Shown here in pieces: positions 1,446-32,174 of a stretch of DNA of 64,000 bases (positions are counted from its first letter, which is position 1; each line of letters starts with the position of its first letter). The notes under the pieces were generated by a model that searched no databases, had not been told where the DNA came from, and saw only the letters and a program-made list of their open reading frames with translations. Source of the stretch: Basidiobolus meristosporus CBS 931.73 (lineage: Eukaryota; Basidiobolomycota; Basidiobolomycetes; Basidiobolales; Basidiobolaceae); the NCBI GenBank assembly GCA_002104905.1, contig MCFE01000331.1, positions 29,075 through 93,074 on the forward strand, in the 5' to 3' direction. The position numbers and the translations under genes are program-made.

Positions 1446-1826
1446 TTACGAAGTATCCGCCTCATCTGAATGGGAAGGGTCAGATAAGTCCGTTTCGTCC
1501 AGAGGCCCCGATTCCTCCAGTATCTTCCAACAATCTATGCATCTCGCCATCTCACGAAACCTGCGCTGGTTCTTACGAAACTCGGCGAGGGGCTTCTCCT
1601 TTCCGCACACGATGCAGAACATACTGGAGCACACTCTCGCGGTGCACTTCTTGCAACTTGGGGGCTTTCGTTTGCCGCTGTGCCCGTGGCGGTAGTGTCG
1701 CGACATCGCCAATTGGGATTTGGAGAAATCGGCGGGTGGCTTGGTGAGTTTACAACAGAAGCAGTAGATGTGGTCGATTGTGGAGGAGGCTGGCCTCTTC
1801 TTGGTGCGAGAGTTGAATTTCCCCAT
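1446..1826 (-). CDS. Stc1-domain zinc-finger protein
   Basis: This 126-residue protein reads from an ATG at 1826. The frame stays open upstream, but only to a TTG, so this ATG is preferred. It matches the Stc1 domain layout: a first cysteine cluster at residues 22-25 followed by an 'FSKSQ' block, then C58/C61, C66, C71/C74, an 'FRKNQR' block and C96/C99, repeating the pattern Cys pair, K..F.K.QR, Cys pair. The tail is acidic and serine-rich. In Schizosaccharomyces pombe, Stc1 bridges the RNAi effector complex to the Clr4 methyltransferase complex; many filamentous ascomycetes have small proteins with the domain whose role is unknown. It lies about 430 bp downstream of another minus-strand zinc protein gene. 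The domain call is firm; a heterochromatin role is inference. Confidence 0.82.
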   Translation of the reverse strand: MGKFNSRTKKRPASSTIDHIYCFCCKLTKPPADFSKSQLAMSRHYRHGHSGKRKPPSCKKCTARVCSSMFCIVCGKEKPLAEFRKNQRRFREMARCIDCWKILEESGPLDETDLSDPSHSDEADTS

Positions 1827-2257
1827 CTTGACGGCTTCTTCGTGGTGATCGCTATTTATATCGGGTGCGCATTGATTCAAAATAACCTTTGCTGAGGTAA
1901 ACTAACTGATTTCCATGAGATGGGTCTTTATTGATACGTCTGCACGGATGCCATCTAGTTGGACATCACCGCAGTGTGTCACTGATCAACGATAATAGAA
2001 TATTTGATGCGGATGAGGGGTCCCAATCATCACACATTCTTTGCATTCCTTCGCTAGGCTTCTAGGTTCAGAGCGGCGAGTTGGGGAGGGGTCTGTTATA
2101 CACAGGGGCTGCGTGTATGGGAATAGGATGCTGCATGCTCCAGGAGTCTAGAACCGACGCTCATTGGTAAAGATTCCAACTGAACTTGACGTAAACAAGA
2201 TAACCATGATACAAGGCGGCCATGGACAACGGATGAGCGGCAATCACCAGAGGGTTG
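1827..2257. other. Spacer between two minus-strand genes
   Basis: This 431-bp gap separates the stop codon of the zinc-knuckle gene from the ATG of the Stc1-type gene. It should hold the terminator of the first and the promoter of the second. I see no further ORF with support and no clear core promoter element. Confidence 0.5.
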
Positions 2258-3965
2258 CTAAAACAAGTATTCGTTGACAAATTCAGTGGAGCCGGAGAGC
2301 TCGTCCAAGTCAACGATCCTCCTTGAGAAGACGTTCTGCGGTTTGTCGCAGTTGAGCCGGTGCCAATCAAAATGGTCGTCGCAGGCAACTGAGCCGGGCA
2401 TGTTTTTCAGGCCTTGGTGGGACCAGGTAGCGTTGATGATGTCATAATGTCGATGGAAAAACTTCTCCACGCATCCGGCGCATTGGCGTAACTCGTGGAC
2501 GTCCATCTCCTCGCAGCTTGGATTGCTACATTTGATCTGGGGCATGTTTAGTGGGAAGTAAAAGGATGCCCAGTCGAATCCAAACGTCGATTACCTGGCG
2601 GTGAAGCTTGAACGAGTAAAGGTGTCGATGCTCCGGGTTCTCAACCAGATGTTGCGCCAGATGGCCCTTTCCATCGCATATGATCGCACTGGGAACCAAT
2701 TAGTCGGCTACGTGGCAAGTTCACTGGAGGTGCTACTTACTTGCAGTCAAGACAGTAAACCAAATTCCATCGAACCCCACAATCGACGCACTTGGGGTTC
2801 TTTATTTTCCGGATCTCCAAGCAACTAATCAAGCCTGTATTAGTAGGTTCGCAAACGGCCAGCAAGCCTAATATACTCACCGGTGATGGTAATCTCGGAG
2901 TTTCTTCGAGTACACCTCTTTTTTCCCGGTTTCTTCGACGGGGACGTTGATGCAATGGATGGGCAGATGCCCTAGCTTCTTGCATTTCCAGCTGGGGGTG
3001 TAAAAACATTAGCGACGAGCAGTCCAAAGAAATCCCCTCGTCGGTTGAGAACATACCAAACTTCCCCGCCCAAGCGGTTCTCCCGATCTTTGTATTTCCC
3101 GGCACGGGCGTCCCAGATATCCCGAGTGGAAACCGCATGACTCGAACCACCGGCGGGCGTCGACTCGCGAGGAGACGCCGGGCTCTCTTCCGAGTCCTGT
3201 TGGCGATACCGTGCTTTTTGGGTGAAGTCGTCTTCCTCACTATCGTCCGAATACAGAGCAGCAATAGAGTTGATCCCGTCGTAAGGATTCGTTGAGTGAC
3301 TAGATTCGACTTGAGTCTCCTCTTCGGAAAGGGGGACTGTCTCTTCCTCCTCGCTCTCGTCGCTCAGAAGCCCGAAGTAGTTTCTGGGCTTTTTGCGAAC
3401 CTGCGAGGCTTCTTCAAGCTGTGGTTTGGTATGAGTCGTCCCGTGCTTTGGTGGGGCCTCGTAAACCTGATATCCAGGAAAGTAGGGGGTACTCTCCTCA
3501 CTGGCATCCCTACTAGCCGATATGGATCTTTTAGGTAGTGGGAGAGGTTGATCCAAGTCGTTTGAGGAGGTGTCGATCTCTGGATGAGCTGGCGAACGAG
3601 GTTTTGGGTCCTTCAGTCGGTAAGTGGTCTTTTTCTCTTCATCCTGAACCAGCGGGTTGCCTCTATCTAGAAGAGGATTAGGTTAACAGAGGTTCAACAG
3701 CTTCTGGTCGAGACTGACCGGCGAGTCCAGAAAAGTCCGTCTTTTCCCGTCAGGTACCTTGTTTCTGAAAATATCGATGGGCCACCTTTTTCTTCGCGTT
3801 ATCTTGTAACACGGTCCCGATGATCTCCCCCTGATCAAGTTGCTCTAGGGAGTTTTCTCCGTATGTACTGCCGTAAAGCTGGTTTGGGTCCACCTCTCCT
3901 GTGAGTATCTTGTAACTCTGGAGGTTTTTGAGGAGATTCTTCGCTTTGGTATCCCAACGACGCAT
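2258..3965 (-). CDS. Six-exon zinc-knuckle / cysteine-cluster protein, function unknown
   Basis: Exons on the minus strand are 3965-3758, 3666-3057, 2991-2881, 2824-2741, 2688-2595 and 2536-2258. All five introns are GT-AG and short (91, 65, 56, 52 and 58 nt), and the spliced length is 1386 nt, giving 461 residues with no internal stop. Residues about 90-250 are acidic, serine-rich and probably disordered. A CX2CX4HX4C zinc knuckle is formed exactly across the second splice junction (residues 273-286). It is followed by a dense Cys/His region (C311, C322/C325, C334/C337, C342, H347, H351) that resembles a UBP-type zinc finger, then CX4C at 372-377, C388/C391, H397/H399 and a final C-H-H-C group. 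I do not recognise the family; nucleic-acid or ubiquitin binding is only a guess. The 5' end is uncertain: an upstream ATG at 4069 could be joined by a 38-nt intron, which is unusually short. Confidence 0.72.
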
Positions 3966-5601
3966 TCTGGCGGATTGAGCACGTCCACTAATCCCCCGTG
4001 GTACATGATTACTTGGCCTTGGCCTTGGTCAGAATCTTGCCTGATCTCGTCTGATCCCGTTATCGACATCGTGAGGTTGGCCAATAATCCATAATAATCC
4101 TGATCCAGTGGTGCATATAAATCCGCACTTGTCTGGATTGGTTTTTGATTGGGCAGAGTATAAATTGCATGAACACTAACCCTTGAGTTTAACTCTGAAC
4201 CCTAACCCTATCGTGGACACACCGATTGTTCCATCATGAGCTTTCTATCAGCTGCGAGTTGATTGAAACAGGCTATGCAAGGGGTTGGGTGATGTAAATT
4301 AACCGCCATAGCCTCTAACCAAATCAACGGTCAGGTCTATACCGGTATTCGGTACCCAGGCTTCCCTCCAACACAATCCTATTGGTACGGTTGGTATGCT
4401 TGAGGTGCATAGGGGAGGGGTTATTGGGATTTGCCCTACAGGAGCTTAGGTGGCCTGTGTTGACTGAGTTCGCAAATGGTCGGGCGTTTCACGCGTCCAC
4501 ATGGTCTGGGATTCAATCAATATGTCTAATTGGAGAGCTCGACCAACTCCACTTGGATCAGGCCAGTGTACCATGGCGCACTCAGAGCCGACAGTTCATT
4601 CCTGTCCCCTGAAAGTAGTATGGGCGTTTCGCCGTAAAGGACTCGTTCGATATAGCCAACTCCCAACTCTTAAGGGGATCGGCTATTGGGATTGGTGGGT
4701 TTGACAATCAATTTTGTGGCATGTTCATTGGTACCATTTCTACCACTTGGCCTTGGTCTTGATTCTCCGGATGGGGTCGATCAGTCCGCTAACCAGAGAG
4801 CATTCTGCTTGGTGTGATATTTGCTCCCGGGTCTTATGTTGGACATATGCATTGCCGTCAGCACCCCACTTTGCAATGGATCATTTCAATTTCCGTTTCA
4901 CTTGGTAGGTTTGAGATCAATGAGTTTAACCTACCTCCGTGATTCCCCACCGCAATGGATGGATCATTCTAGATACTTTCTTATTTCTGCATGGACATGG
5001 CACCAGGTGATATTCTCCCCTGCTGGCTTAATCCACAATCCCCTATTACACGAACCGGCAAGATCCAATCCCAAGCTCCGGACATGCGAGTTTCCGTCCA
5101 CCAGAGTCTTACGTGAGCAATCCAATCGCAATCCATTTGGCCTGGAGATCCAAGGTGTATACCAGGCCGATACTTGGGAACTATTGAATCCCCAGTGTGA
5201 CGGAAGCCCCCAGACATGTTTCAGCATGCAATTCGCATTGATCAACGTGGTTTGTGGTGATAACTCAACCCGGAGCATCATGTAGGTGGTAGAGTTGCAA
5301 CTTATATGCATTTGGTAGCAATCAGCAGGAAGGGTATCTTAAATTCGTGCTTGGTCAGCCAGATGTCCAAGTTCTTACTTGGCTTGCGTAACCTAATTAA
5401 AATGGCTAGGCTGCTTGCTAATCTCTACTTTTTTGATATCTGCACTCCAAAAGATACCCTCACCTGGCTAACTCTGTTGCAACTTGCTAGTTTGGTGCCC
5501 AGAATCTTGATTATAATACTGTGGTCTCTAACAATGATTTTGGAGCTTGGCAATATTGGAAGCCATGGAAATAGCTGTTAAGACTGCTGTATGTTGCAGG
5601 T
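3966..5601. other. Upstream region and unassigned DNA
   Basis: The first ~300 bases should hold the promoter of the zinc-knuckle gene. Beyond that I find no gene I can support. The longest open frame (4836-5285 on plus, about 149 codons from its first ATG) has no recognisable motif, and another frame is open on the opposite strand, so it is probably chance. Two adjoining CCCTAA units occur near 4196-4210 but do not form a telomere tract. Base composition shifts from CpG-bearing to AT-rich and CpG-poor at roughly 5300-5600, which marks the left edge of the transposon block. Confidence 0.5.
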
Positions 5602-6105
5602 GTTTTAAAGTTTGTAATTACACCTAAATACTCCCTTACCTAGGTCACTTGGAGAGAGTTTTGGCCAAATTCCTTGTCAGAATTTACTTACAATGCTTTC
5701 ATCAAAATGTCAGACCCCCAGGACATGAAAGAATCTCAAAGCTGTCCAGATGGCCCCAAAGTTTGCACACATGCACTTGATCTTGTAAGATTTTTGGAGA
5801 TGTTGGAAGTGCTTGGGAGAACAAGTAGATTATGTGGCTTTCACTTAATGATTTACTGAATGTAATAGTAATAACTGTACTTTTACATGGTCTTGGCAAA
5901 ATAAACATACAGAATGTGCTTAAGAAGGACTCAATTGTTGCAAATTTTCAGCTTGGGCAACATTGCCACTGATCATGTTGTAAGTACCCTGTATGTTGGC
6001 AAACATATTCAGCATATACTCTTAAAAGGAATTTGGGCAAAATTCTTTGAGGTTTGTATACTTCTACAAAAGCAACCAAGTCAAGCAACTATTTAGGTGT
6101 AATTG
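5602..6105. repeat. Two opposed copia LTR pieces
   Basis: 5602-5783 matches the 5' half of the copia LTR seen intact at 13010-13359, in plus orientation. 5781-6105 matches the same LTR in minus orientation and is quite diverged in its middle. The two pieces meet head-on inside the LTR, so one LTR probably inserted into, or recombined with, the other. No coding sequence is attached. Confidence 0.65.
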
Positions 6106-6157
6106 CAAAGCTTAATACTCCCACCCCACTGAGCAATCTTATTTACTAGGCCTATGT

Positions 6158-6833
6158 TGTTGTAAAAACTTGTAACTTCATCTAAATACTTACCTAACTT
6201 AGTCACTTAGATCATTACCTACAAATCTTAGAGAATACTGACCAAATTCCTTGTTGGGAGTTACTCAGAATATTTTACCAAAATATCAGGTACCCAGAAC
6301 ATGAAAATCATCAATGTTGTCCAAACAGCCCCAAAATTTGCACACATGCTCATGAGACCTTGCTGCATCTATTTTTTGTGTTTTACACCAGGACCATGTA
6401 AAAGTATAGATACTACTTTTACACTTCATAGATCATTAAGTGAAAGCTGTTGTCAGAGTCTTGGAGATTTTGGAAGTGATTGAAAGAACAAGTAGATTCA
6501 GTGGCTTTCACTTAATAATACTTTTAGATGGTCTTGGCATGGCTAACATATAGAATTGGCTCAGCAAGGTCCCAAGAGCATGTGTGTGAAGCTTGGGGCT
6601 GTTTGGACAATATTGAGAATTCAAATGATCTGAGTACCTGATATTTTGGTGAGAATATTCTAGGTAAATCTCAACAAGAAATTTAATCAGTATTCTCTAG
6701 AATTTGTAGGTAAAAATCCAAGTGATTAAGTTGGTGGAATATTTAGGTGGAATCACAAAATTCTACATTGAAAACCACATAATCTACTTGTTTTTTCAAG
6801 CACTTCCAATATCTCCAAGACTCTTACAAAAGT
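6158..6833 (+). repeat. 5' LTR of copia relic C1, split by an inverted LTR
   Basis: The plus-orientation LTR starts with TGTTGTAAAA at 6158 and ends near 6833 with CTTACAA. It is interrupted at 6448-6770 by a second LTR of the same family on the other strand. Removing that piece restores one LTR of about 350 bp, the family's usual length. A degraded primer-site remnant (TATGAGCC) follows directly. Confidence 0.75.
6448..6770 (-). mobile_element. Solo copia LTR nested in another copia LTR
   Basis: This is a minus-strand copy of the copia LTR. It is flanked by the 5-bp pair AAAGC (6443-6447) and AAAAC (6771-6775), a target duplication with one mismatch. That size fits copia integrase. The internal region is gone, so it is a solo LTR left after LTR-LTR recombination. 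Confidence 0.7.
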
Positions 6834-6862
6834 CTATGAGCCTCAAGCTCTCACACTCTGTA

Positions 6863-7745
6863 ATGTCCACTGCTGCTATTATTGGACTTTTCCCCTCTGC
6901 TGTAAAGTTGGTGGATCTAACTATCAGGTCTGGAAGGTGAAGATGAAGTTGCTGCTACAGGAAAGTGGCCTTTGGGATACTGCTATAGGTGAGGAATGCC
7001 CTCCTAAAAGCTTGGGAGAAGGAGCCTCAAAGTACCAGAAGAAACAACAAAGTGTTTTTGCTGCATTTGCTTTGATGTTAAAGACAAATTGCTAACTCAA
7101 TGCTCCATAGCAAAAACAGCAAAGAATGCCTGGAAGGCATTAGAAGACACATTCCAGCCATGTTCAGCTGCTAAGAAAGTATATCTTAGAAGAAAATTGT
7201 TTATTACAAAAATGCTGCCAGGAAAAGATGTGAAAAATTCAATAAGCAGAATTATGCTGCTATGCGGTAGGATGAAATCTGAGGGCATGCCAACTACTGA
7301 TGAAGATTTAATAGTTATCATTTTGAATAGCCTGATAGCCAGGTTTCTGGGTCTTGAGTCAGCCCTGGAGTCCTCAACTGAAGATTTTGCCAGCTGCTGG
7401 ATGAAGAACTCAGATAATCAAGTGCTAACAACAAGTAAGAAGAATATACTGTAATGAGCAGTTATAACCAGCAATGAAGGAACCTAAGATACTTGAAAGG
7501 TAACAGCAATCTGCCTTGCAACTACTGCAAAAGGAAAGGACACCCATTAGACTGGTGCCTCAACAGGAAAGATAATCAGCAAAAGAACCCTGAATTAAGG
7601 AATGCTGCAACAACTGAAGATGGATTACTCATATCTGAACTATATATGACCACCAATAAGGACTCTCAGATGTAGGATATTGACTTTGGAGCATATCAAC
7701 ACTTCACACCCAAAAAAGAACTACAAATGTATGACCATGCTATTG
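6863..7745 (+). pseudogene. Copia C1 gag-protease remnant
   Basis: From an ATG at 6863 the reading follows Ty1/copia Gag. The N-terminal block matches C2's 'SNYQV.KVKMK', then comes a middle section of 121 open codons (7089-7454), a CCHC zinc knuckle C-N-Y-C...H...C near 7516-7555, and a damaged protease site reading D-F-G-A at about 7680 where active enzymes have D-S-G-A. Several stops and frameshifts break it. The sequence ends soon after the protease, where CACTA-like DNA begins, so integrase, reverse transcriptase and 3' LTR are all missing. It is clearly the same family as C2 at 13.0 kb. Confidence 0.8.
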
Positions 7746-7861
7746 CCATGGCACCTGATGGACTCATAGTAAATAAGTACTCTACCAGCAAATCCTGCTG
7801 GCCACTGATTTGCATCAATCTGAATCTGCTATCAATCCTATAGTATTAGAGCCCAAGTCTG

Positions 7862-8170
7862 ATGGTAAGCTCATCAATATCTGTGCCTAAATCATCATCC
7901 AGCCAGGATTGCTACCTGCATTCATTGCTGGATAAGTTTTGTATGCTCTCTAACAGGATCCTAGTAAATTCCCTTCATATCAAAGCACATATTCTTATCT
8001 GCATTGAAGATACCCAAGCCTTCAGCAAGTTAGCCAGCTTTTCTGGGTACAATGGATGGCATTGTTTTCCAGTGTATGAGATCCAGGGGATTTTTTCCAT
8101 AACTCACACAAATTATTATTATCCAAGCACTACACTAAGAACATCATTTTCTTGCAAAGAGAATGTATGA
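7862..8170 (+). pseudogene. Tnp2-type transposase fragment (X1)
   Basis: This 102-codon frame matches the Tnp2-type transposase read on the minus strand of X4. It carries the region with 'HIKAHILICI.DT' followed by 'LASFSGYNG' and a 'THTNYYYP' block. In fungal CACTA/EnSpm transposases these segments (GDTPA...GH/NA...C..C...YYYP) sit in the Tnp2 core. The catalytic neighbourhood is not complete here. The downstream C-terminal portion continues to 8353 in broken frames and resumes after the nested element at 11349. This fragment cannot make an active enzyme. Confidence 0.65.
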
Positions 8171-8979
8171 AAGTCAGCATGCATTTGCATCAAGAATATA
8201 ACCTTCAAGTCTGTGATGGGCGTGATGAGTTGACATATGGAGGACTGTCAATAAGAAATAGAAAGAACTGAGGACATATGTGCATATAGAGACACCTATA
8301 CCTTGGCACTATGAAGCTCATCAGCCCCAATGTGTGGGTTGTCAGTTATGTTATCCTATGAAAAATTATTGTATGATCCCAAAAGGCCATTGCAAATATC
8401 AGGTCCCATAACTAGGAGGTATTGATCCCATCAGGACACCATGCAAAGACCAATAAAAAATAATTGCACCCCAGATATCACAAAAAACTTGGTCAAAATT
8501 TTTCATGAAGACAATACAAAAGTGGCTTTTGATTGGTTCTCTTCCAATTTTCTCACTTTCTGATCCTGAACACTCTATCACCTCCTATATTTGTGTGCAT
8601 TAATTGGCTATTGCCCCTTTATCACACTCCTTACAACCCAACTCTACCGTTCCTCTTAATCTTCATGCATACAAATTGATTTATTTCCGTTGAACTTCAA
8701 TTGTACCTCAATTGCCAAATGTATAGACCTATATAAGTCCCTATATCATACACTAACATTAAGCCCAACCCCACACTCAACAAGTAACTCAGTTGATATC
8801 CACCACACAATAAGTATTACTTCTGTAATGCTTTTTTTCCATGACTTTCAAGCCCTATGGCTTTATGCCACTGTTCATTCACTGGTTCCCATATATCCTG
8901 GTTTTCAGCCTGCACTACAAGTTCTAGCTACTCATCTACCAATCTTTACAATAAATCCTTGCAATATTCAAGTGCTTTT

Positions 8980-10290
8980 TCTTGCGCACTGCTCTTGAAG
9001 AAGTGCTGCAACCTCTTGGTGTGCCTGTTAATGTTCCAAAATTCCACTAAAGGCATCGTGACAACCCTTTGGGTTCTGATGTTGTTACTTTGTCTGTCAG
9101 TAGGATCTCCACTCTGTCAACAATGGAGAATGTGAAGGCTGTGGTAGACAAATTGCCTATTGCTACAAACTCATCTACCTCACTGGAGTGCAACTCAACT
9201 GGCTGAGCTTCCAACTCTTGTTGAAACAGCTGTTTTCTTGTTGATGATTCTTCTTGGCTATGATGGGATTCAGTCTGTTCTGGGCTTACAGCATTAATTG
9301 ACAAAAACTGCAGCTTTTTTCTCACACTTCCCTGTGTCCAGCTTGGATAGACTTTTTCCCTTTACCTTTTCCTTGATCACTGCCTGGTCTTTTACTGTTA
9401 TTTAGACTGAGTACTTCTCAAGTGGAATTACCCTTTTTCCTTGGTAAACTTTGTGCTGGTGCATCAGTGTCTGCCTGCTTTTTCCTTATTGGCACTCTTC
9501 CAGCTACCTGATGTCCCATTGATGCTTATTTGGAGCTTTTGGCCCTGCTTGTAATGGGCTCTTGAGGATGCTGCTGGTTTTTTGCCATTGCACCCTTGTT
9601 CTTCTGCCTTTGATAGTTTCTGCTATTTCTGAGATACTTTCTTGGCATACCAGTGCTGGCCTAAAATCTATTACTTGTTTGAGTCCAGGATAATGCTCAT
9701 GAAATAAGTCAAGCACATTTGGCTTGGCCTTGCGTTCTAGATGGTTCCATGATATGCCAGCCTAAAGGTGTTGGCATGCTAGACTTCTAACAGCCTCTTG
9801 AATATTATCCCACTCTTCATTATTGCACTCAATGGCTACACAGATCTTCAATGTCTTTTGATTTTTATGCTTTGGGATAAACACTACATTATCTCCCTCC
9901 CATACTGTGTTAGGTTTTTCTGTGGGCATTAACTTTGGGCACTGTTGTTGTGCTTCAAAGACTGTATGGTGTTCCTCTGCTGTTACATTGGGAAATGGCA
10001 CAAATTCTTGGCTGTGACATTGAGATACTTGAGTTCCTTCTTTGCAGCAATGATACTGCTTTCTCCACCTGAGATATTGATTGCTCCACACCTTTTATCT
10101 ACAGATCCTCTTTCTGGACTATTTCCTGACTTAATGCTTTGGTATGAGCTGACAACATACTTGCTAATACAGATGGTGAAAATGTTATGACAGCCACTTG
10201 CTAGTCTTCCACTGAAGGTACTGCGTTTGCTACATTCCAATCTGCCTTAGCATTATGATCAGCTTGTGGCTTTGCAGGGATTCCCAATTG
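8980..10290 (-). pseudogene. Second gene of the CACTA-like family (X2 copy), broken
   Basis: This minus-strand remnant matches the plus-strand second gene of X4 (56233-57913). Conserved blocks are 'AMEH...SISQV', 'EHHTVFEAQQ', 'IECNNEEW', and at the C-terminal side 'LEAQPVELHSSEVDEF'. Frames change several times and stops occur, so no full protein results. I do not recognise the family. In plant CACTA elements the second protein (TnpA) binds subterminal repeats, which is an analogy and not shown here. Confidence 0.55.
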
Positions 10291-10950
10291 CCTATTTGAT
10301 TGAGTGTCTGAGGTATCTGCATAAGCATATTGCAAGATGTTTATGTTACCAGCAATACAAGGTATATAACAGCTTTGCAAGTTTCATACTAAAAAGCTGT
10401 AAAGTTGAGGTGATAGAAGTTTGTCAGTTGCAGCAGGTGTGCATGCTTCTAGAGGTTAGTAAGCAGGAGGCCATAGTATTTTTTGATTTGAACTATATGG
10501 TAAATACCCAAGATAGTAGTGGGTAAGCAAATAAGGAGGGGCAATTTTGCAGTGGAATATATGAATTGGGCAAGGGGAGGTAGAAAAAGTAAATACCATT
10601 TGGTAAATTGGTACAGTAGCATTATACAGACTAGCTGTGGGCTGTCATACTACTGTGATAATGCCATTAGAGGCTTGCAATGGGCCCATCAAAACACTGT
10701 CACATTTTTTGCCTTATCAGGCAAATGCATGTACTGGCCAGTTAGATCCACTCATATAGTTGTATAGCACAATAAGACTGCAACAATGCCATGCCACACT
10801 TGGTAAAGCACTGTTCAAACACCATTATGTTTTTAACTTTATATAACTGTAAAATTAGCCAAGTGTTGTTGTGGTTCCATCATAAGATTGTTTTAATGGT
10901 CATTAATTCCAAGTTGCTGGTACCATTGTGGTCTCTTGACAGGATCTTTA

Positions 10951-11298
10951 TGTTGTAAAGATTTGTAATTCCACTTAAGTATTCACCTAACTGAGTTGCT
11001 TAGATCATTACTTTCAAACCCTAGGGAATACTAACCAAATTCCTTGTTGCAATTTACCTAGAATATTTTCACCAAACATCAGGTATCCAGAACATGAAAA
11101 CTTGCAGAGTTGTCCAATCAGCCCTAAAACTTTGCATACATGTCATTGGGACCTTCCTTAGCCTATTCTGCATGTTTGTAATGCCAAGACCATGTAAAAG
11201 TATAAGCACTAAATTGACAATAATAAATCACTAAGTGAAAACCACATAATCTGCTATTTCTCCAAATCACTTCCAATATCTCCAAGACTCTTACAACA
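10951..11298 (+). mobile_element. Solo copia LTR with target duplication
   Basis: This is a 348-bp LTR of the same family as 13010-13359. It starts TGTTGTAAAG and ends CTTACAACA. It is flanked by CTTTA (10946-10950) and CTTAA (11299-11303), a 5-bp duplication with one mismatch. It sits inside the end region of X2, so it postdates X2. Confidence 0.85.
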
Positions 11299-12310
11299 CT
11301 TAATGGCTGATCTGGTTTGGATACACCTGCTGGACCAAATTATTTTTCTTAAGGTAATGCAAGATTGGGATGGACATAGCATACAACATATTCTGATGAG
11401 GACAGTTTTCCCAAAGTATATTGGGTTTCCCCTGGTTAAAATACAGTTGTGCCCCTTTCTATACAGAGTTCCTAAAGATAAGACCCAGTGTACACCAACA
11501 AGGAATAATAGAATCCAGCAGGGAAAAGAAATATATTGTCAAAATACCAATAAGCTTATATAGGATATTAACAAGGTCCCCACTGCAAAAGTGGCAGTAA
11601 CCAACTATGTGCTTGCAGGATATATATGTTGCCAGCAATACAAGGTAAATGTCAACTCCATAAGTATTGCACTGAAAGCCATAAAGTTGAGCTGATAACA
11701 GTGTGTCTATTGCAGTGGGTGTGTGCATATGTAGAGGTTACTAAGCAGGAAGCTATGGATTTTTGACTCAAACCATGTGTGAGATACTCATGGTAATAGT
11801 GGGCTAGCATAGCATGTGGGGTGATACTTCAGTGGAATATAAGAATAACACACAGAGATACACAAAAAGCCAACACCAGCTGGTAAGTTGGCATGAGAGG
11901 ATTATGCAGGACTAGCTGTAGGCCACTAATAGGATTATAAAGGACTAGCAATAGGCCAATATACCCACATTGTAGTACCAACAGAGGTCCTACAGGAGGC
12001 CATCAAAATACCAACAAGTTTTCTGCCATGTAAGGCAACTAGTTATATTTGTCAGTTAGGTCCACTCAGTTAAATGTAGGGGACATTATAACTATCAAGA
12101 TGCAAAGCAATTCTTGCCAAAAGAATGTTAAAATACTGCCATGTTTTTAACTTTCTTTGGCAATAAACCCAGCAAAATGCTACCACAATCCTGCTATAAG
12201 ATCCTGCAGAGGGTCAATAGTTGCAAGCTGCCAGCATTATGACCTCATCACTACAGGATCCCAATGGCTAATCTTGATTGACTCCACTTGTAAGACCAAA
12301 TTATTTTCAC

Positions 12311-13009
12311 AGAGCAAAGTTGTCCTTTCAGTGAAAGCTCAGAGATCACTTCCTGCAATACTGCTGGCCAAGAAAATTAATCTTACCACAGAAGGAGCCT
12401 CACCAATCAGAGAGCTTCTTTTAAGTCAATCACATAAGCAAGATAGCTCAGACCTACTTAAACACAATATGAAGAGCCCTGAGATTTAGCAGCTGACATA
12501 GCAACTAGAGACACTTTTCTTGCTTCTGGTCAGCAGAGCCCATGGGTAGCAAGCAGTAGTGAAAGAAGGCAAATATACAGGCTAATTGTGAAAGTCTACC
12601 AATCATTCCAAGAGAAGCTGCCAGGCTCTTTAGTCATTACTATCTGCAGGTAAGGAGCAATATAACTCCAAGAGATATCTAACCAGCTGTCATAGAGGCA
12701 AATTAGCAGCAGCAGTTGGCCAAGGTAGAATGAGTAAGCACTACAAGCAAATTACCTACAATACAAGAAAGGTACACCTGCATGAAGAAGGAGATCCAAC
12801 TACCTTGATCCAGCTTAAGTCCTGAACATTGACTATGAGAGTTCCACAGTGGCCCAAGACCATAGAGCTGCAACATATGCATCCCAGAGATGCCATCTTG
12901 AGAAAATGTCTAATCCAGGTCCATCACCAAAAGTACCAGAACTTGAGTCAGATGTCATAATTGCAAAGAGAGCTTCACCCCATCAAGCTTGCAAAAGTCT
13001 GCCAAGACC
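12311..13009. other. Unassigned DNA between X1 and copia C2
   Basis: No recognisable gene. A weak open frame that begins inside X1 (12157) runs to 12489 without known motifs; the remainder is full of stops in all frames. It could be the target into which X1 and C2 inserted, or an eroded element. I cannot say which. Confidence 0.4.
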
Positions 13010-13359
13010 TGTTGTAAAAGCCTGTATTTCCACCTAAATATTCACCTAGCTTAGTCACTTAGATCATTACCTTCATATCCTAGAGAATACTAACCAAATT
13101 CCTTTTCAGGATTTACTTAGAATATTTTCACCAAAATGCCAGGTACCCAGAACATGAGAATTCTCAAAGTTGTCCAAACAGCCCCAAACTTTGCACACAT
13201 GCTCTTAGGACCTTCCTTATTGTATTCTACATGCTTGTTATGCCAAGACCATGTAAAAGTATATATTACTACTTTTACATTAAATAGAGCATTCAGTGAA
13301 AACCACATATTCTACTTGATCTCCCAATCACTTCCAATATCTTCAAGACTCTTACAACA
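13010..13359 (+). repeat. 5' LTR of copia C2 (reference copy of the LTR)
   Basis: This 350-bp LTR begins TGTTGTAAAAG and ends CTTACAACA, giving the short terminal inverted repeat TGTTGTAA/TTACAACA. It is the cleanest copia LTR in the window and is followed directly by a primer site and gag, which sets the orientation. The other LTR of C2 is absent. Confidence 0.88.
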
Positions 13360-13372
13360 GGTTATGAGCCCC
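13360..13372 (+). promoter_or_regulatory. Primer-binding site matching the initiator tRNA-Met anticodon arm
   Basis: The 12 bases after the LTR, GGTTATGAGCCC, are the exact complement of the anticodon-loop segment GGGCUCAUAACC of eukaryotic initiator tRNA-Met. This is the known internal (half-tRNA) priming mode of Drosophila copia and related elements, and not priming from the tRNA 3' end. The match is seen directly; use of the tRNA is inferred. Confidence 0.75.
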
Positions 13373-13390
13373 AAGCTGTCACTCTGTGCA

Positions 13391-14262
13391 ATGTCTACTA
13401 CTGCTATTACTGGAATTTTTCCCTCTGCTGAAAAGTTGGATGGATCTAACTACCAGGTGTTGAAGGTGAAGATGAAGATGCTGCTACAAGAAAGAGGCCT
13501 TTAGGATATTATCATGGGAGAAGAATGCCCACCTAAATACATGGGAGAGGAAGCCTTAAAGTACCAGAAGAAAGAACAAAGTGCCTTTAACTGCATTTGC
13601 CTTAGTGTTAAGGACAAATTGTTAATTCAATGCTCAAGAGCAAAAACGGCAAAGAATGCCTGGAAGGCCTTAGAAGACACCTACCAGTCATGTTCAGCTG
13701 CTAAGAAAGTGTATCTGAGACAAGAGTTCTTTACTACAAAGATGCTGCCAGGTGAAGAAATGAAACATCTAATTAACAGTATTACCCTGCTGGTAGATGA
13801 AATGGAATCTGTGGGCGTACCAACTAATGATTAGGATGTGATAGTTGCCATTCTGAATAGCTTGACAGACAGGTCTCAGGGCCTTGTATCAGCCCTAGAG
13901 TCCAGAACTGAAGATTTGACCTTAAATTACATATATGGAAGGCTCCTGGATGAAGAATCAAGAAAATTAAGCGCCAATAAGAAGGAAGAAGAAAATGCTT
14001 TAATAAGCAATGAAAACCAACAAAGGAGGTACTCCAGACCCTACAAAGGCAGCAGCAACCTGTTTTGTCACTACTGCAAAAGGAAAGGACACACATCAGA
14101 CCAGTGTCTCAAAAAGAAATATAATCTGCAAAAGAAGTCTGTATATGGAAATGCTGCAACAACTGAAGATAGACTATTCACATCTGCACTAAATATGACT
14201 ACAAGCAAGGATTCTCTGACGTGGTATATTGACTCTGGAGGTTCTCAACACTTTACACACAT
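13391..14262 (+). pseudogene. Copia C2 gag-protease remnant
   Basis: The ATG at 13391 opens a Ty1/copia Gag: 'SNYQVLKVKMK' early, the UBN2-like middle (13514-13834), a CCHC zinc knuckle C-H-Y-C...GH...C at about 14070-14107, and a protease site 'WYIDSGGSQHF' at 14222-14254. In-frame stops at 13502-13504 and 13832-13834 plus a shift break it into three pieces. It stops right after the protease, where the CACTA-like X3 begins, so integrase and reverse transcriptase are missing. Together with C1 it lets one reconstruct the family order LTR, primer site, Gag, protease. Confidence 0.85.
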
Positions 14263-15343
14263 CCATTGTGCCCAAAAATGCCTGTTATCTTGCTGACAGC
14301 TGGTGTATCTCCAATAATAATATGCACTTGGATATGAAGGCCATTTAAGTAATCTTGCTAGAAAACATACAAAACTTGTCCACCAATAGCAACAGGTAGC
14401 TATCCAGGCTGGATGGTGAATTAGGCCCATATACCAGTGAGACTGCCATCAGATTTCTGCTATGATACTGTACAATTGGTAGCAGTTTCAGGTTGTAGAG
14501 AATTTGTGGCCAGCAGGATTTGCTGGTAGTGTACTTGTTTAATGAGAATTCATCAAGTCCAAAGCAGAGGCATGGTCATACATACCTTCAAATTAGCCTT
14601 TGTTTCTATCTGCTTATTATAATTGCCAGCAAACATATTGGATATATTAGCACTTGATTGATACTGAGTGCAGTACTTTACAGCTTCATAATATTTGTTG
14701 TACTGCATTAGCTGCTTTGGATGGAGTATTACTGGAATATATCTGCAGTGTGAAAAATGTTTTCCCCAACAGTGGTAAATTCCTGATAAGTTGGACACCT
14801 TGCCATGGTGGAATTTTCTGATTTGAGCACTACGCAGCTGTTAACACATACTGGTAACATGGTGGTCTCTGGGTCATATATTGCAAGCCATGTGACAATT
14901 GTCCATTTATACTATAAATATGGCAAGTTGCATCCCTGGATGATTTTGTTAAGATGTAGTATTAAATCCTTAAAGCCCATGTTACTGATATTAGAAGAAA
15001 TGTGCAAGTTCTTTAGCCACAATATTGTATCATTCACCAGTAGATGAAATACAGGGCTCACTTGACTCAATAAAGTATCATTGGATTTTTTTCCACAGAT
15101 GTTGTCTCATTGCATAATTGAATTTTGACAGGCTCATGCAGGGTGCTGTTGTTAGGAAAGATAGGCACACAATCCATTAGTGAGCCTGCTACCTCAGAGC
15201 TATCACTCTGAGTACCATATTCAGAAGGCTGTGGTGATCCTAAGTGGATGGCAAACACACCTGACTCAGCTTGTGCCAGGTGACAAGTACAGCCAGGTGC
15301 TGTTATAGAAGTATTAAGTGGCCAGTAAGAAATTGCTGATACA
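14263..15343 (-). pseudogene. Tnp2-type transposase remnant (X3)
   Basis: Read on minus this stretch follows the Tnp2 region of X4 through several frames, including the part that gives the 'DT.AVSKI' and 'GHNG'-like motifs near 14265-14430. Stops and shifts are frequent. The N-terminal continuation lies beyond the foreign insert, at 16935-17400. The C-terminal third is missing because copia C2 abuts it. No active product is possible. Confidence 0.6.
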
Positions 15344-16934
15344 GTACTATCAAATCTTCAGATTCAGCCAATTTACCTCTGCAATGAACCCTCTTGTACC
15401 CAATCTTAGAAAAACAAAATGCCAACCACTATAGCTTAGGTAACATCATGCTTTTATATAATCTTCCCAAATCCCATCCACAAATTAGTACTCTCAGGGC
15501 TATGGTGAGCTATTTAGCCACCAAATCTGGCCAGCTTGAAGATATTTACAATCATGAAGCTCCTTGACCCTTGCTTGCACCATGTCAGAATTAGATTCCA
15601 AAATTACACGCCTTAAAAAAATTTTATTATAACCATCATAGATCTGGGTTAGTTGAATCCAATCTGAAAAACAGTTTTGCTGTATTTGAAGTTATTGCCA
15701 AAGAATTGTATCCTGATAACATTTTGTATGACCTGATCTGCAAATTCCTTGCCAGCAATTTAGTATTTACAAATGCCCACACCAAAGGTGTGTGGTAACT
15801 TGAAAATGGCCTCTGGGAACTCTGCAAATCTGGCAGCAACCTCTGGACTTTTATATCCCAAAATTTCCCTAAACATGTAGAACTTGAGTTTGCCAACAGT
15901 AGGTGAACCCCTGAACAAACTACATATCTAAGCAAACTACATTTTAAAATAGGTTCTTGGAATTGTAAAAAATGTATTTTCAACAATGTAAGATATAAAC
16001 CTTTTGACAGTACATTTGTCAACAAGCTTAATTCCAAATCTTGTATTTTTTCTCTGCAAAATGGTGTTTACAATCTCATCAAAAATACCATTTGTGATGT
16101 CATTCCTGCCAATTATGTCTCCGTCCAGGCTTTAATCAATTGGTTTTCTCCCATCCCTCAACAAAATATATCTTGACCTATGGGCAATTAGGAGAAAAAT
16201 TTTCCCAAACCATATTTATTAAATTTTCTCATCATGACTTGTGCATCTTTCTTGAAAGGTTATAATTCCAACAAAATCTTCTACATCCGGAGGGGAAAGG
16301 GTAAAAATGCAAAAACTGCCATCCAGACATTGCTTGCAGAGACATTTGGGAATTACTGTGCTACTCTGCCAACTACCTTAATCACCTGCAGCAGTGGCTT
16401 GTCATCTAATGCCACACCTGACATGTGCCACTGAGAAGGTAAACCTGTAATGTTCTTACAAGAACCAAAGTCAGAAGAGAAAGTTAAGGGCAGTATTGTT
16501 GAAGAATTAACTGCTAACAACATAATATACATCGGAGAACTTTACAAAAAACCTTGCTCTATAAAATTTAAAGGTAAGATGCTTCTTGTAACTAATAATA
16601 TTTTGGATATTCCAGACATGGATGCAGCACTTAAATGTTGTACCATTATTGTTCCTTTCTTAAATACCTTCATGCCACAACAAGAGTGTGATTCTGCTGA
16701 GCAGAAGAAATATACCTATTTTGTTGAACCAGATGCCAACAAAATATTAGACCACTTATGTGACAAATTCATGTTGTTATTATTGTGTGAATATCCTAAA
16801 TATGTTAAGTATGGCCTTTGGAAACCACAAATTATTTCTGATACTATGGATACCTATTTGGTTGCTCACAACTATCTAGTTGTATTTCAACGTAAATATT
16901 TCAAGAATAGCACTGGTACTAATATGGAGGTATT
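15344..16934 (+). pseudogene. D5-like (NCLDV-type) helicase-primase relic inside a transposon
   Basis: The plus strand carries a decayed SF3-type D5 helicase-primase. From about 15660 there is an N-terminal D5_N-like region, including an 'ENGLWEL' block near 15800 and an 'NGVYNL' block near 16060. The helicase core follows in one frame from 16234 to 16977, broken by a single TGA at 16432-16434. The core has a Walker A-like G-K-G-K-N-A-K-T at 16294-16317, an acidic 'FLQEP' motif at about 16453-16467 and 'LLVTNN' (motif C) at 16582-16599. The Arg pair usual after motif C is replaced by Lys-Cys-Cys. D5 proteins unwind DNA during replication of nucleocytoplasmic large DNA viruses and relatives. 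The C-terminus is cut where transposon sequence resumes at 16935. Several upstream stops and shifts make it dead. Origin from an integrated virus or linear plasmid is inference. Confidence 0.75.
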
Positions 16935-17632
16935 TGAATGGTCAAATATGACTTGTGTGGCAAAACACTGGCAGTGATCCTTGTAATACTTCCTATGCTC
17001 TCTATGTGCTTCATGGCTGAGAGGCATGCTACAATAGCCACATGGTCTTTTTGCTCTTCTCTTATGGTGCTGAATCAGAGTAGTCTTCTCCATGGGGCAA
17101 ACAGTATGACACTCAGCAACATAACACAATCATATCACTTTTTTGTGAATACTCATCTGCATTTGAGACAGTCATGTATTTGAGACAATACACCTATATG
17201 AAAGGAAGAATCAGTGACAAACTGTCATAGTAAACATTAAAGATAAAGATCAGGCCCCACATGCACACATATATGCAACACCATTTCCCCATTGATTGGA
17301 CTCACTTTGACATATATACTGCCAACAAGTAAAGCAAAGTTGTCTGGTTCCCAACCAAACCCCACCACTGACAGCAGCAGAAGAATGGCTGGACAACAGC
17401 TTGCTTTGACTTTCAGTGCAATAAGTGGGGCTTCAATCAAAAAAAGCCCTGTGGACAGTAGACTTGTTCTGTTGGACAGTGCCACATTGTGCCAGCCTGT
17501 TTATAGTGCCGGATCAATCAGGCACTATCTGACACTATAATTTCTACCATAATGCCAGCAGTAGGTCATAGTTACTGGTAATTTTACTCAATCTTACTTA
17601 TGTTGCCCAGAGTAGTGCTTTCCTAGCTTTAC

Positions 17633-18517
17633 TTATGCTTAATAATGCTCCAGACACATTTCTCTCAGTAGATGTCTGGTTGTATAAATATACTATGGAT
17701 TGATAAGTATCTTAACTATTTTACCTATTCTGCTGTTTTCTCCTCTATATTACTTTCCTCTGTATTTACCTGCCAATATGCTGTATCACTTTGGATATCC
17801 AAATGTATGCTCTACCCTCACTCTGAAATGATTAAATATCTCATTGTAGGGCTTCTGCTTCCTGCTAAGCACACCATTCCTTGGCTTCCTATAAGCTGTA
17901 ATACATCCTAATCTCTGACAGTCCTCTCCTATATAAGCTAAGTCTGCCATACATTTCTCCCCTCTACAGAATTCTGGATGATTCTCTACCCAGGGTGCTT
18001 TGTCATGCCTACTTCCAGCAAATGGCCCACTAAACCAGATGATGTTAACCTCAATGTCAGACAGTGTGTGAAGCTTCACACAGTGTGCCTTGCACTTGCC
18101 AGAAGAAAAGTGTGTCTGCCCTCTAGAAGGTCTGCTAATTCTGATTGGGAAGGGGTCCAAAATACTCCTTATATGGAACCTGTTGCTGAACACTCTGGGA
18201 TATGGAAGTCTATTGGAGCTTCCAAACCTAGTACTCCAAGCTTGCTCTAAGTCATTCATATGCTCTGCAAGGTGGTTCTCCATTGCTGTCAGCTGGGAAT
18301 GAAAGTTTCTAGGACCTTTGTAGCCATGGATGGTGGGATGAAACCTTGTAGGGCAATAGTTTTTGTAATAGCAGAGAAGCTTAACAAGGGATCTCCTTGA
18401 ATAGATTGGGGTAGATGGACCATAGTACTGGGTATAGATCTTCTCTAGTGTGTCAAAAGGAGACCCAGCAGTTGTGATGGGATTGATGAGAAAAGACCAT
18501 TCAGATGAGAAAGTCAT
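17633..18517 (-). pseudogene. H1 DDE_Tnp_4-type transposase with nonsense mutation
   Basis: The ATG at 18517 opens 243 codons that closely match the intact H2 transposase. The triad is present: D in 'LDPFP', D in 'ADLAY' with the 'GSRHD' motif between them, and E in 'VEHTFGY'. Codon 244, AGA in H2, is TGA here. The remaining ~50 codons continue past the stop to about 17633. It is therefore truncated just after the catalytic Glu and probably inactive. It belongs to the PIF/Harbinger-like DDE superfamily; the exact family name would need a database search. Confidence 0.82.
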
Positions 18518-18875
18518 ATTAAAATTAGTGGAGGATTAGGCTGAGGTGATTTAAATTGATTTGACACAATCAGTATTATTTATTGATTTTCCATGCATTA
18601 TGATTAACTCTCCATCAATTGCCATGTATCCCATCATTATGTTGCAAAAAGCATCCTCAAACAATGAGAGGGTACTTTTATTGATGTTTTACTCAAAAGT
18701 CTATAATCAAATAGGAAATCTGCAATTCATGTGATCTGATCCGTGTTAATGCAGTCCAAGATGCATCATGCATAATATATGGAAAATTGAACAATCACAT
18801 TAGTTTTCATATATACTTCATATAAGACCAGGTTGATGCCATTACACAACTGTATACGTATCCAAATCTGTCACT

Positions 18876-20021
18876 ATGGTCCCTATACCAAGTCTCAGCT
18901 CATCTTTAGTTCAATCAAGACAAAATCCATCCCCCACCTCACAAGCGTGGTCCAGACAAGAAAAAGCAATGTTGGATCTGCTTGAGTTGTTGCCAAATGG
19001 TTGCAGTTTGGCCCAAGTCTCTATGGAAAGCCTTCATACAGATATTTGGGCGCTACTCATTAATCCAGCAGAACTAGATACCTTGGAGAGTTGACAGAGA
19101 TGGAAGAACCTGAGTAGAAAGCTGTGGCGTGAGTTCTACATCAAGATGCCAGCAGATGTATATAAGAAGATATATAACAAGACAAGTATTGAAATCAAGG
19201 ATGAGCTCAGAGTGAGTGGATTTGATGAGGAAGCTGTGTGGGAGATTTTGCATGCAATTTGCCCAGTACAGGCCGGACATATCTGTTTGTGCCTCAACTT
19301 TGGGAACCAAAGAGATTTTGAATGAGTTTTTGCCTCAAATGACTAATATATTACATGATGTATTAGTAGAGCTAAGTGGCTTCCAAGATCAATATACACA
19401 GGACCCATCCAGGCAATAGTTCAAAGTACTAGACAGAGGGTAAGTGAATACCTTGAGGAATCAGAAGGTGAGCTTCAAGAGGAAGAATACTGACTGCAAG
19501 CAACATTGTACAGATTGCGCCAGCACACCTTGCTGGATTCCTTACCATCCCTTACAACTTCAGCGCACTGGTGCACATCAGTCCAAACTACGCCAACACC
19601 CTTCCCAAGAGTGCCCTGCATTGACTCAATGAGTATTGGGTCAATGTGCACACTTCAGAGCAAAACCACCAGAACCCGCCAAACTGCTCAAAAAGACACT
19701 AGTCCATTGGAGCGGCCCAAGTTGCATCAACAAGCAGCATCACTTCAAACTCAGCCAAGGGCCATGCCAGCGCATCAAGTTGCATCTGTGTGTGCCATTA
19801 CACCTGACCATCAGCAAGTTTCTTCTGGTGAACTGACAGATGATGACCCACATGAAGTGCCTCCACCACCAGAGCCTTTGGCAAGTAAAAGAACGTGGCA
19901 GCACGTAGCACTGCAGGCCTGCTCAGTTGCATCATCCGGAGCAATTCAGCATGGCCAAGCTGCAGCATTGCACTCATTAACTAGGAGGCAAAATACTGAC
20001 TACAAATACACAAGTATCTAA
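18876..20021 (+). pseudogene. H1 second gene, unknown function, broken
   Basis: The plus strand opposite the transposase carries homologous coding in two or more frames. First comes a block with 'AWSRQEKAMLDLLELLPN', then 'KKIYNKTSIEIK', then a Pro/Gln/Ser-rich tail (19506-20021). The same order is found inverted in H2 (24958-23614), so it is a genuine part of the element. Harbinger elements often carry a second Myb/SANT-like protein that helps the transposase. The Trp-rich start could be such a domain, but I cannot confirm it. Stops and shifts disrupt it, or an intron separates the two parts. Confidence 0.5.
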
Positions 20022-20864
20022 GAGGATAGTCAACAAGAAAGTAGTTTAGGAGTGCAAAGTTAATCACTACCAGATGCTTCAGTAGTAATCCCTGTGAGAA
20101 AAAAGCCTAGGAGAAGATTATGCAATCAAATTGAACTGCTATTATTTGTAATGATCCAAACAACGCATTTTGTTTGCAACCTGCATCAAGCCATTGCAAA
20201 TCAGTGATCACTAAATTTTTGATATAAGCCATATCATGGTTGTCTCACATTTGGGACAGGACCCCTATAAATAAACACCCTGCATATGTATACATCATCT
20301 GTGGCACCAGTGCAGCCATTTGATCTGATTTGCACTCATACAATTGATTGCGTGCTAGCTATGACACCTTATCCAATCACTAGGATCAGGGATTTACTTG
20401 CTCAATGGGCAAAATGGGATATTTGATGGCAAATCAGGTAGCTTGTGTATTGATCAAAGAGCCAATTGGGGGCTGACAGCTTCAGGATACTTTTGGACCA
20501 ATTAACTACTGAGATACCATCCAATTGGAGTGATAGTAACCAGAATGGTAAGTATCAGTGTAACTTATAGTGCAATATGCATTTGTTTCCATTTACATTA
20601 AAGAAACATATCCAAATACTGGATTTTAGCAACCATAATAGCAGTATCCAATTGCGCATGTGATGCAAATATTACAAGTGGGTGCAATCATTCATGTCAA
20701 CCTCATTGTGTCAGATTGTGCCATAGTGTGCAAGATTGTCCCACATGGTGCAAAATCATCCAAGAGCAATCCTGCATTTTGGTAGCTACAATATTGTGCC
20801 CAATCATTCTCAGAGACTGCCAATTGTGCTGTGCACCCTGGCACAGTACAATGAAACTAGTCTA

Positions 20865-22884
20865 GTGTGCCCACCCAAGAGAATGATGTGGACTCCTCAA
20901 GGTCTCAGGCAAGTAGGCAATTGGGAATCTCTGCAGAGCCACAAGCTGACCATAATGCCAGGGCAGATCAGAAATTAGCTAAGCAGTACTTTCAGTCAAA
21001 GACTAGCAAGTTGCCACCCAATCATCACCACCAAATGTATTAGCAAATATGCTTTCTACTAACACAAAGCATTAATAACACAACCAGAAGCAGTTGCTGA
21101 TAGGATAGATGCAATGGCCCAGAGAAGTCAGGGAATAGTCCAGAAAGGGGATCTGCAGATAAAAGGTGTAGAGCAATCAATATCCCAGGTCAAGAAAGCG
21201 GTATCTTTGCTGCAAAAAAGGAACTCACATAGCTCAATATTGCAGCCAAGAATTGAGCTGTTTCCCAATGCTACAACAGAGAAACACCATACAGTCTTTG
21301 ATGCACCACCAAAGCACCTAGAGATAAAGCCTGCCAAAAAACCTATCACAGCATTGGAGGGAGAAATTGTAGTGCTTGTACCAAAGCCCAAAAATCATAA
21401 GACATTGGAATTTGTGAAGCTGTTGAGTGCATTGCTAAAGTGTAGCCTAATATTCCAGAGGCTGTTAGAAGCCTAGCCTACTAACACCATTAGGCTGGCA
21501 TTCTATGGGACCATCAGGAACTCAAGGCTAAGCACAATGCACTCAAGCATGGGTATTATCCTGGATTCAAACAAGCAAACAGATTATGGGCAAGCATTGG
21601 TATTGTAGGAGAGAATCTCAAGATTAGCAGAAATTGTCAAAGGAAGAAAAACAAAGGTGTGATGGCTAAAAGCCAGTGGCTTCCTCAAGAGCCTGTTACA
21701 GGCAGGGCTGAAAGCTCCAAGCAAGTGTCAAAGAGACATCAGGTAGCTGGAAAGTGTCAATAATGCTTAGCAGTCAGACACAGATGCACCAGTACAACAT
21801 TCATCAAGGAAAAGTGTAGTTCTACTCAAGAAGCTCTCAGTAAGAGGAACAGTGAAGGATATGGCAGTAATACAGGAAAAGGTAAAGGGAAAAAAGTCTA
21901 CCCAAGCCAGGACCAAGGAAGCATGAGAAAAAAGTGCAGTCCTTGCCAATGATTGCCATAAGCCTAGAACAGACTGACCCCCATTCTGGCCTAGAAGAAT
22001 CACCAATAAGAACACAGCTGTTTTAAAAGAGTTGGAAGCGCAGCCAGTTGAGCTACACTTCAATGAGGTAGATGAGTTTTCAGAGAAAGACAATTTATCT
22101 ACCACAGCCTTGACCTTCTCCATTGCTGACAGCGTGGAGATCCCACCATCAGACAAAGTAAAAATGTCAAGAACTCAAAAGGTTATCACAATGCCTTCAG
22201 TGGAATCTTGGGACATTAATAAGCACACCAAGAAGTTGCAGCACTTCTTCACAAGCAGTGGTCTAAAAAATTTACATGAATATTGCAAGGATATATTGCA
22301 AGGACTGGCAGATGAGGTGCCAGACCTTTTGGTACCGGCTAAAGACCAGGACATATGAGAACCAGTGAATGAACAGTGGCATAAAGCTGTAGGGTTCTGC
22401 CAAAGTCATGGAAACTGAGTGTTACAGCAGAAATACTTCTTGGGTGGTAGATTTTAATAGAGTTACTTGTAGAGTGTGTGGATGGGGTAGTGTAAGGGAT
22501 TAGGACTTTTATAGGTCAATATAACTGACAATTGAGGTAAAACTGCAGTTACAACAGAAATAAACTTAAATGCATAAGAAGTAAGAGATAGGGTTCAGTC
22601 ATGAAGTTAGGAAGACAAAAAAGAGCCAGTAGCCAATAAATGCACACAAACATAGGTGGTAATAGGATGTCTGGGATCAGAAAGTAGGAAAATTGGCAGA
22701 AAACAAATTAAAAGCCACTTTAGTATTGTTGCTATGAGAAATCTTGACTTATTTTTGTGAAATCTGGGGTTCAATTATTCTTTGACAGTCTTTGATGGTG
22801 TCCTAAGGGGATCAATACCTGCTAGTCATAGGAATTTTAATCTGTGATGGCCTTACATGGGATCATTGCAATATTTTTTTAGGG
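20865..22884 (+). pseudogene. Second gene of the CACTA-like family (X3 copy), broken
   Basis: This plus-strand stretch aligns with 56090-57913 of X4. Open pieces are 21114-21476 ('AMAQRSQGIVQK', 'SISQVKKAVS', then 'EKHHTVFDAP') and 22032-22358 (from 'LEAQPVELH' to 'PAKDQDI'). Between them, around 21480-22030, the frame is lost. The first piece has a heptad-like helical look. I do not recognise a family. The last few hundred bases to 22884 are the noncoding right end of the element. Confidence 0.55.
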
Positions 22885-31004: not shown

Positions 31005-32174
31005 ATCCTAGCTAGCCCCATAAGTAAGGAAGGAAGCTGTGTATTGACTTTCAAGGAAGAACCCTATGTACCACCAAGAGTCAAAGGCCTATCTTAGGTA
31101 AATGGGCCAGAGCACAAGGACTAATTTTCAGTTTTGACACCTCTGAATAAAGACTGTGGCATATTATCCATAGGTAGTAGGAAGTGTTTGATTACTTCTG
31201 TTGTTGATAAATCAGTGTACACTGGGGTGTGTCTCATACAAAGAAAGGAAGAAGGTTTGTTTAAGCTTGGGTAACATAAAGCCATGATGGAGAGAAAAAC
31301 AGATGAATGAATTGCAAAAGTATACACTAAGAGTGGCAAAATTTTACCCCAAGAATCCTCATCTGCTTGTGCAAATTATGTGCACTATAGCCAGGGACTT
31401 CTGCACCATATCCTCCCTTGCAAAAGGAAGTATCAGAAATTTCAAATTGATCACCATTAACAAGTGAGATGGATGATCCATGATCCAAGACTATGGTACT
31501 ATTCCGGGTAGAAAATGGTGATACAGCAATACAATTTGAGAATGCAAATACAGGTATACATATTCAGAACATATTGCTTAGCTATGGAGAGTAAAGACTC
31601 CCTGATTAGCCTTGAAACAGAGTTTTGCCAACCTGCAACAACCAATGGACCACTGTACTGTTTTGCCACTAGTTGGGGCCTGGTTGAGCACTATACACAA
31701 TGTGCAATATTGCACAAAAATTCCAGTGCACTAACACTGGAGTAGCTCATTAAAAGTTTGATGTAGTGATGGCAAATATGATTTTCATCATACCAGGAGT
31801 CTTAGGCTTCAGTATATCAGAGGCATTATGTTCACTTCTTTGATAAAGTTAGCACACACTATCAATTGTTTAGCTCACACACTATGTAAGTAAGTTATCC
31901 ATACTTCAAGTAGTTGGGTGGCAATAATGCACTCATATAAGTCATCAGCCACAACTGTCAAATGGAGGCTTTCATGATCTACTAACCCATCAGGCTGGTT
32001 AATGCACAGAAGCTTTTCCTTCTTTTCTTTCATGAGTTTGGCCCTTGTATAGCTTGTCAAGTCATCAGTTGATATTATTAAATACTGCGCTTCACCTGAG
32101 GATAGATTCTGCAAAGGTCAACAACAATCAGAGTGAATTGATCTATTTTCTTCTTAATTCTTAACATATAACTG
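31005..32174. other. Unassigned DNA with a possible integrase scrap
   Basis: Most of this stretch has no recognisable coding content. On minus, 32114-31875 contains 'YLIISTDDLTSYTRAKLM', which resembles the integrase core start of another gypsy lineage (the R/T-DDL...A motif). It is isolated and does not match the gypsy family of this window. Treat it as a weak hint of a separate, eroded retroelement. Confidence 0.35.

Follow-up and report, generated by a model that had tools for sequence, protein, structure and literature searches.

The split repeat copy at the left of this locus raises the question of how part of a helicase-primase gene came to lie inside a high-copy repeat of Basidiobolus meristosporus, and from what source the gene was derived. 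The window, meaning the whole 64,000-nt stretch of DNA that was analysed (G000:C571:29075-93074), belongs to an assembly of 89.0 Mb in 1311 contigs. A 5.8S/ITS stretch read by eye and an ATPase nearest in PDB to plasma-membrane ATPases of fungal origin tentatively suggested the same host. Comparison of the window with itself identified a repeat, X, present as the two copies X3 (14264-22876) and X4 (54469-58340), that probably extends farther left than these bounds. X3 is split by a 1.59-kb insert at 15346-16934 (earlier given as 15344-16934), whose joints were judged by eye and whose edges carry an uncertainty of a few bases. The left X3 flank (14264-15346) aligned to 54469-55556 of X4 with 75% identity and the right flank (16935-17459) to 55565-56088 with 81% identity, leaving an empty site of 8 bp (55557-55564) in the sister copy. 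These alignments and the empty site bear out the first-pass annotation, made from the letters of the sequence, in that a piece absent from X4 splits X3; the small loss of X4 sequence at the joint was found as well, at about 8 bp rather than the proposed 11 bp or so. The identification of X as a CACTA-like transposon was not confirmed. No CACTA was found near the right end of X at about 58340, the left end not being fixed, and a search of 50 ORFs from related loci listed 25 families without a CACTA-type transposase. The features of the locus are as follows.

14264-15345, plus strand: left portion of X3
15346-16934, plus strand: inserted fragment of a predicted D5/P4-type helicase-primase, truncated at either end and interrupted by 8 in-frame stops
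15388-15795, plus strand: N-terminal frame pieces (15388-15564 and 15595-15795), no family match, DNA relative on contig C447
15907-16173, plus strand: middle piece, D5_N-like by eye only
16192-16431, plus strand: Walker A piece with the loop GKGKNAKT at 16294-16317, matching phrog_1156 (E 0.0027) and TIGR01613 (E 0.001)
16435-16934, plus strand: Walker B, B' and motif C with the following region, LLVTNN at 16582-16599
16935-17459, plus strand: X3 immediately right of the insert
17494-20863, strand not given: second transposon nested in X3, with a frame resembling DDE_Tnp_4 elements of related loci
20864-22876, plus strand: remainder of X3, with the decayed frame common to X copies
54469-58340, plus strand: sister copy X4, with the empty site at 55557-55564

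The plus-strand frame from 15346 spans the insert and is broken by 8 stops, compared with 26 and 48 in the other plus frames and 27, 22 and 41 in the minus frames. Over 5000 first-order Markov simulations the lowest count in any of six frames was 11, so that none came down to 8, and in five X4 stretches of insert length no frame held fewer than 16 stops. The frame was searched as separate pieces. The piece from 16435 matched NCBIfam TIGR01613 at E 1.4e-7, phrog_7601 at 1.1e-6 and primase PHROGs from 4.1e-5; all TIGR01613 scores, including this one, fell under the curated cut-off of that family (108.7 bits, compared with 46.1 bits for the best piece). Pfam searches of the D5 pieces returned DUF5906 alone, below cut-off, and the pieces at 15595-15798 and 15907-16176 gave no Pfam match above cut-off. 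The Walker A-like loop and the motif C named in the first-pass annotation are both present by eye, the latter as the motif C-like LLVTNN, with alanine in place of the classical Walker A glycine in all three copies that keep the P-loop (the window, C497 and C1194). Two arginines that are near-invariant in relatives are missing from the window piece, and the piece at 16435-16934 ends short of the natural end seen at C497. We conclude that the insert encodes part of a predicted SF3 helicase of the D5/P4 type. The protein search thus upheld the D5-like helicase that had been proposed, through TIGR01613 and the phage and plasmid primase PHROGs, and not its D5_N region, since PF08706 found no match genome-wide with its control positive in three genomes. 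Decay may mask this region from profile searches.

Parts of the D5 gene were found at seven places in the genome (the window, C497, C447, C516, C745, C1194 and C857, the last over 52 bp), and no copy undamaged over the full gene was among the genome matches. The best-kept copy, on C497, is 66% identical to the window piece over 164 residues and matched TIGR01613 at 2.9e-12, again below cut-off, and phrog_864 at 6e-16; tblastn with it returned 40 phage records, the best being a phage primase (2e-10). On C447 the 5' part of the gene lies at X position about 57893 of a different X copy, which is split by a nested transposon of its own. Overlaps of a few bases were seen by eye at the joints of both the window and the C447 inserts. 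C516 and C745 look like one copied event, as the same 3' end is joined to X near 54482 by an identical joint. The ratio dN/dS between the window and C497 pieces was 0.24 (bootstrap 0.14–0.39; 157 codons), compared with 0.55 for the repeat-encoded frame of X3 and X4 and 0.52 (0.33–0.83) for a polymerase relic and its counterpart on C1116; in a second D5 piece of 65 codons silent changes between the window and C497 were saturated. The two D5 copies therefore diverged while the protein still mattered, and divergence under constraint fits separate integrations from related viruses. Two frames on C1194, of 1495 and 1627 aa, looked viral and were rejected as Ty3-type retrotransposons.

The sister copy on C497 ties the D5 gene to other DNA through a repeat. 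An array of 108-bp units lies behind the C497 D5 gene (L002:2788-3652), and 108-bp repeats also follow a polymerase gene on C1116 (L135:4518-7447). Matches to this repeat, part of them short stretches, occur on 16 contigs, and the unit may have separated genes in the virus. Contig C1116 is 33.3 kb long and was read at 1-17999 and 31830-33329. Upstream of its 108-bp repeats it holds an open B-family polymerase frame of 884 aa that matched PF00136 and PF03104, with no match to the protein-primed type PF03175 at E <= 0.01; the nearest PDB match was eukaryotic polymerase delta. A helicase end on the same contig matched NPHI_C at E 0.0014, below cut-off, additional genes encode a HIRAN protein and a MutS, and related frames of no assigned family are also present. 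Taken together, the genes of C1116 resemble those of a giant virus. D5 was not among the matches on C1116, and none of its frames tested had a match elsewhere in the window. Probes for X, Tnp4 and Ty3 found nothing within the first 18 kb. The last 1.5 kb is without a long frame, its CpG falls from 0.85 to 0.37, and it had no match among 57 loci (343,483 bases compared).

The MutS of C1116 has domains I and III in one frame and domains IV and V in another, overlapping frame, the change of frame being either true decay or a base error. It also gave an HNH match at E 0.009, below cut-off. PMC3166940 records MutS proteins with a C-terminal HNH domain from nucleocytoviruses, from epsilonproteobacteria and from octocoral mitochondria, and there the octocoral mitochondrial MutS7 is reported to be without domains II and IV. 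The MutS7 label is not secure for the C1116 protein because its domain IV match lies slightly above cut-off.

Polymerase relics bearing stops were found on nine contigs (C573, C415, C1157, C377, C1248, C442, C757, C127 and C759), and on C573, C377 and C1157 the decayed polymerases adjoin 108-bp repeats. Weaker polymerase matches on C578 and C538 may be host enzymes. The relics on C573 (L137:4195-6118) and C377 (L138:3954-5848) lack the same stretch and have similar repeat surroundings, so that one of the two is probably a copy. Polymerase-like relics occur at five places over about 41 kb of C757 (118415-159592).

The relics and C1116 differ in decay. CpG observed/expected was 0.10 in the insert, 0.00–0.04 in X and 0.06–0.08 in three polymerase relic stretches, compared with 0.97–1.38 in the coding parts of C1116, where CpG is undepleted and the frames are mostly open where read. 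On C497 the value was 0.29 for the D5 piece and 0.91 for the repeat flank. The window fragment is thus old and has decayed jointly with its repeat, and C1116 was spared that decay. CpG in the window is 0.17 overall and 0.81 in its gene-like left 5 kb, a pattern that looks as if the repeats were methylated.

The virus group was approached through fold, database and marker-gene searches. The structure model of the window piece is weak (pLDDT 59) and was built with 33 phage-type relatives. At E <= 0.001 the model gave 20 viral fold matches, of which 13 carry the names of nucleocytoviruses, 3 carry phage names and 4 are unnamed; the first is a Solumvirus and the third Pithovirus LCDPAC01. In PDB the first fold matches were the SaPI5 primase-helicase and the ASFV PrimPol, none at E <= 0.001. 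The modelled fold thus leans to Nucleocytoviricota, with no family proven. The D5 relatives found by sequence alone were phage-type. A viral contig collection scanned with the D5 pieces of this genome gave no match, and the single match of a DNA motif scan of viral contigs was attributed to chance by its translation. A PDB profile mixed with phage sequences matched the SaPI5 primase, ASFV C962R and poxvirus D5, a result that leans on its phage rows because fungal-only queries found no D5 relative in PDB. Of the other viral core genes that the first-pass annotation had proposed to seek, C1116 carries the B-family polymerase, the weak NPHI_C match and MutS; capsid, A32 and VLTF3 profiles found nothing over cut-off in the genome, the capsid and VLTF3 negatives being no proof of absence as zero control genomes were positive. 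Sub-cut-off matches were obtained for VLTF3 (E 0.217) and A32 (E 0.416), the former, with one stop, at C1254:9336-9581.

The insert is, in our judgement probably, an old and non-functional D5 fragment of an endogenous nucleocytovirus-like virus that was joined into X3 as filler DNA. The insert itself, the empty site, the helicase homology, the sister fragments and the shared-repeat link to C1116 are the observed parts of this explanation. A giant-virus origin is probable on account of the 108-bp repeats shared with C1116, the polymerase relics and the fold matches of the weak model, which nucleocytoviruses lead. Viral DNA would have integrated more than once, or have come from several related viruses, and would then have broken up, some pieces being copied together with repeats. 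The D5 fragment, cut at both ends, would have entered X where a double-strand break was repaired by end joining, the joints overlapping by a few bases and X losing about 8 bp. The repeat would then have been a passive carrier, while CpG loss and stop codons decayed the fragment alongside it. The order of events, the end joining and the virus group are what we infer here. The earlier suggestion of filler DNA at a break remains the simplest reading for a decayed D5 piece inside a high-copy repeat. The host lineage has probably encountered large DNA viruses on several occasions. A more specific history, in which one nucleocytovirus family that is still around entered the lineage repeatedly, the old integrations now being shredded filler inside an abundant repeat and C1116 either having integrated very recently or belonging to a virus that the sequenced strain carries, is put forward tentatively and is rather doubtful as a whole.

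If the D5 gene belonged instead to a fungal mobile element, be it X or a larger transposon, X3 would have kept what X4 lost. D5 pieces do abut X at four loci (the window, C447, C516 and C745), with X sequence nearby at C497 and C857. However, a 501-bp probe over the site was crossed without the insert by all 39 other scored X copies, in a census of the best-scoring 40 of 1819 candidates that is biased toward unbroken copies; the pieces meet X at differing positions (55556, about 57893 and 54482) with differing cut points; and the repeats behind the C497 gene are tied to polymerase relics and not to X. We consider this origin unlikely. Errors of assembly at the joints, which the repeat-dense region might invite, are very improbable, as the strong CpG loss is common to insert and flanks and the C447 piece sits in another X copy with its own joints and nested transposon.

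The remaining alternative concerns the source, which might be a primase gene of phage or plasmid type, or else a linear plasmid of the cytoplasm. The best sequence matches are indeed phage and plasmid P4-type primases, and the P4 family (TIGR01613) is a significant match from the same SF3 helicase group; yet the D5 pieces score under the cut-off of that family and keep other genomic company. Phage-type best matches are also to be expected if the compared collections are as poor in giant viruses as they seem, and the fold matches lean to nucleocytoviruses despite the phage-type relatives in the model. The NPHI_C, HIRAN and MutS neighbours fit such a source ill. A linear plasmid is further disfavoured because the linked polymerase on C1116 is of the PF00136/PF03104 type and not PF03175. 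This source is therefore quite unlikely, and of the past contact with a large DNA virus or a linear plasmid that had been suggested, the virus is retained as probable and the plasmid is not.

A 2020 survey by Gong et al. reportedly described endogenous NCLDVs in several fungal phyla, including a pithovirus-related group, and may already cover this host. The present loci were not found in the literature searched, that survey being outside the search, and none of the 25 papers listed out of 776 combined Basidiobolus with giant viruses. Nucleocytoviruses endogenous to early-diverging fungi have been reported before (PMC5294986, PMC10640383). The former reports genes of NCLDV type in Gonapodya, Rhizophagus and Allomyces, among them a D5 gene in Allomyces. 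The present case is alike in having nucleocytovirus-type D5 or polymerase genes in an early-diverging fungus, but those lie in gene-bearing islands, whereas here a broken fragment lies inside a repeat and the polymerase relics are repeat-linked (PMC5294986). The latter describes a giant endogenous viral element related to Asfarviridae in Rhizophagus irregularis, which likewise is nucleocytovirus DNA in a fungus with scattered polymerase genes and with no capsid gene detected. That element is a single 1.5-Mb block, in contrast to the short, decayed and scattered pieces found here together with a 33-kb contig whose frames are mostly open (PMC10640383). As of 2023, according to the same source, no fungus-infecting dsDNA virus was known (PMC10640383).

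Relics at differing decay, together with one far less decayed segment, amount to a layered record of infection in which C1116 offers a concrete place for seeking a recent one. Viral gene fragments hidden within repeats, as in X3, are pieces that whole-gene searches would overlook. As a minor observation, a single 5.8S match, at C1281:18244-18397, was reported when 39 of 2563 candidates were scored; within about 1 kb to either side of it lies DNA unlike rDNA, and the match may for that reason be a displaced piece of rDNA.
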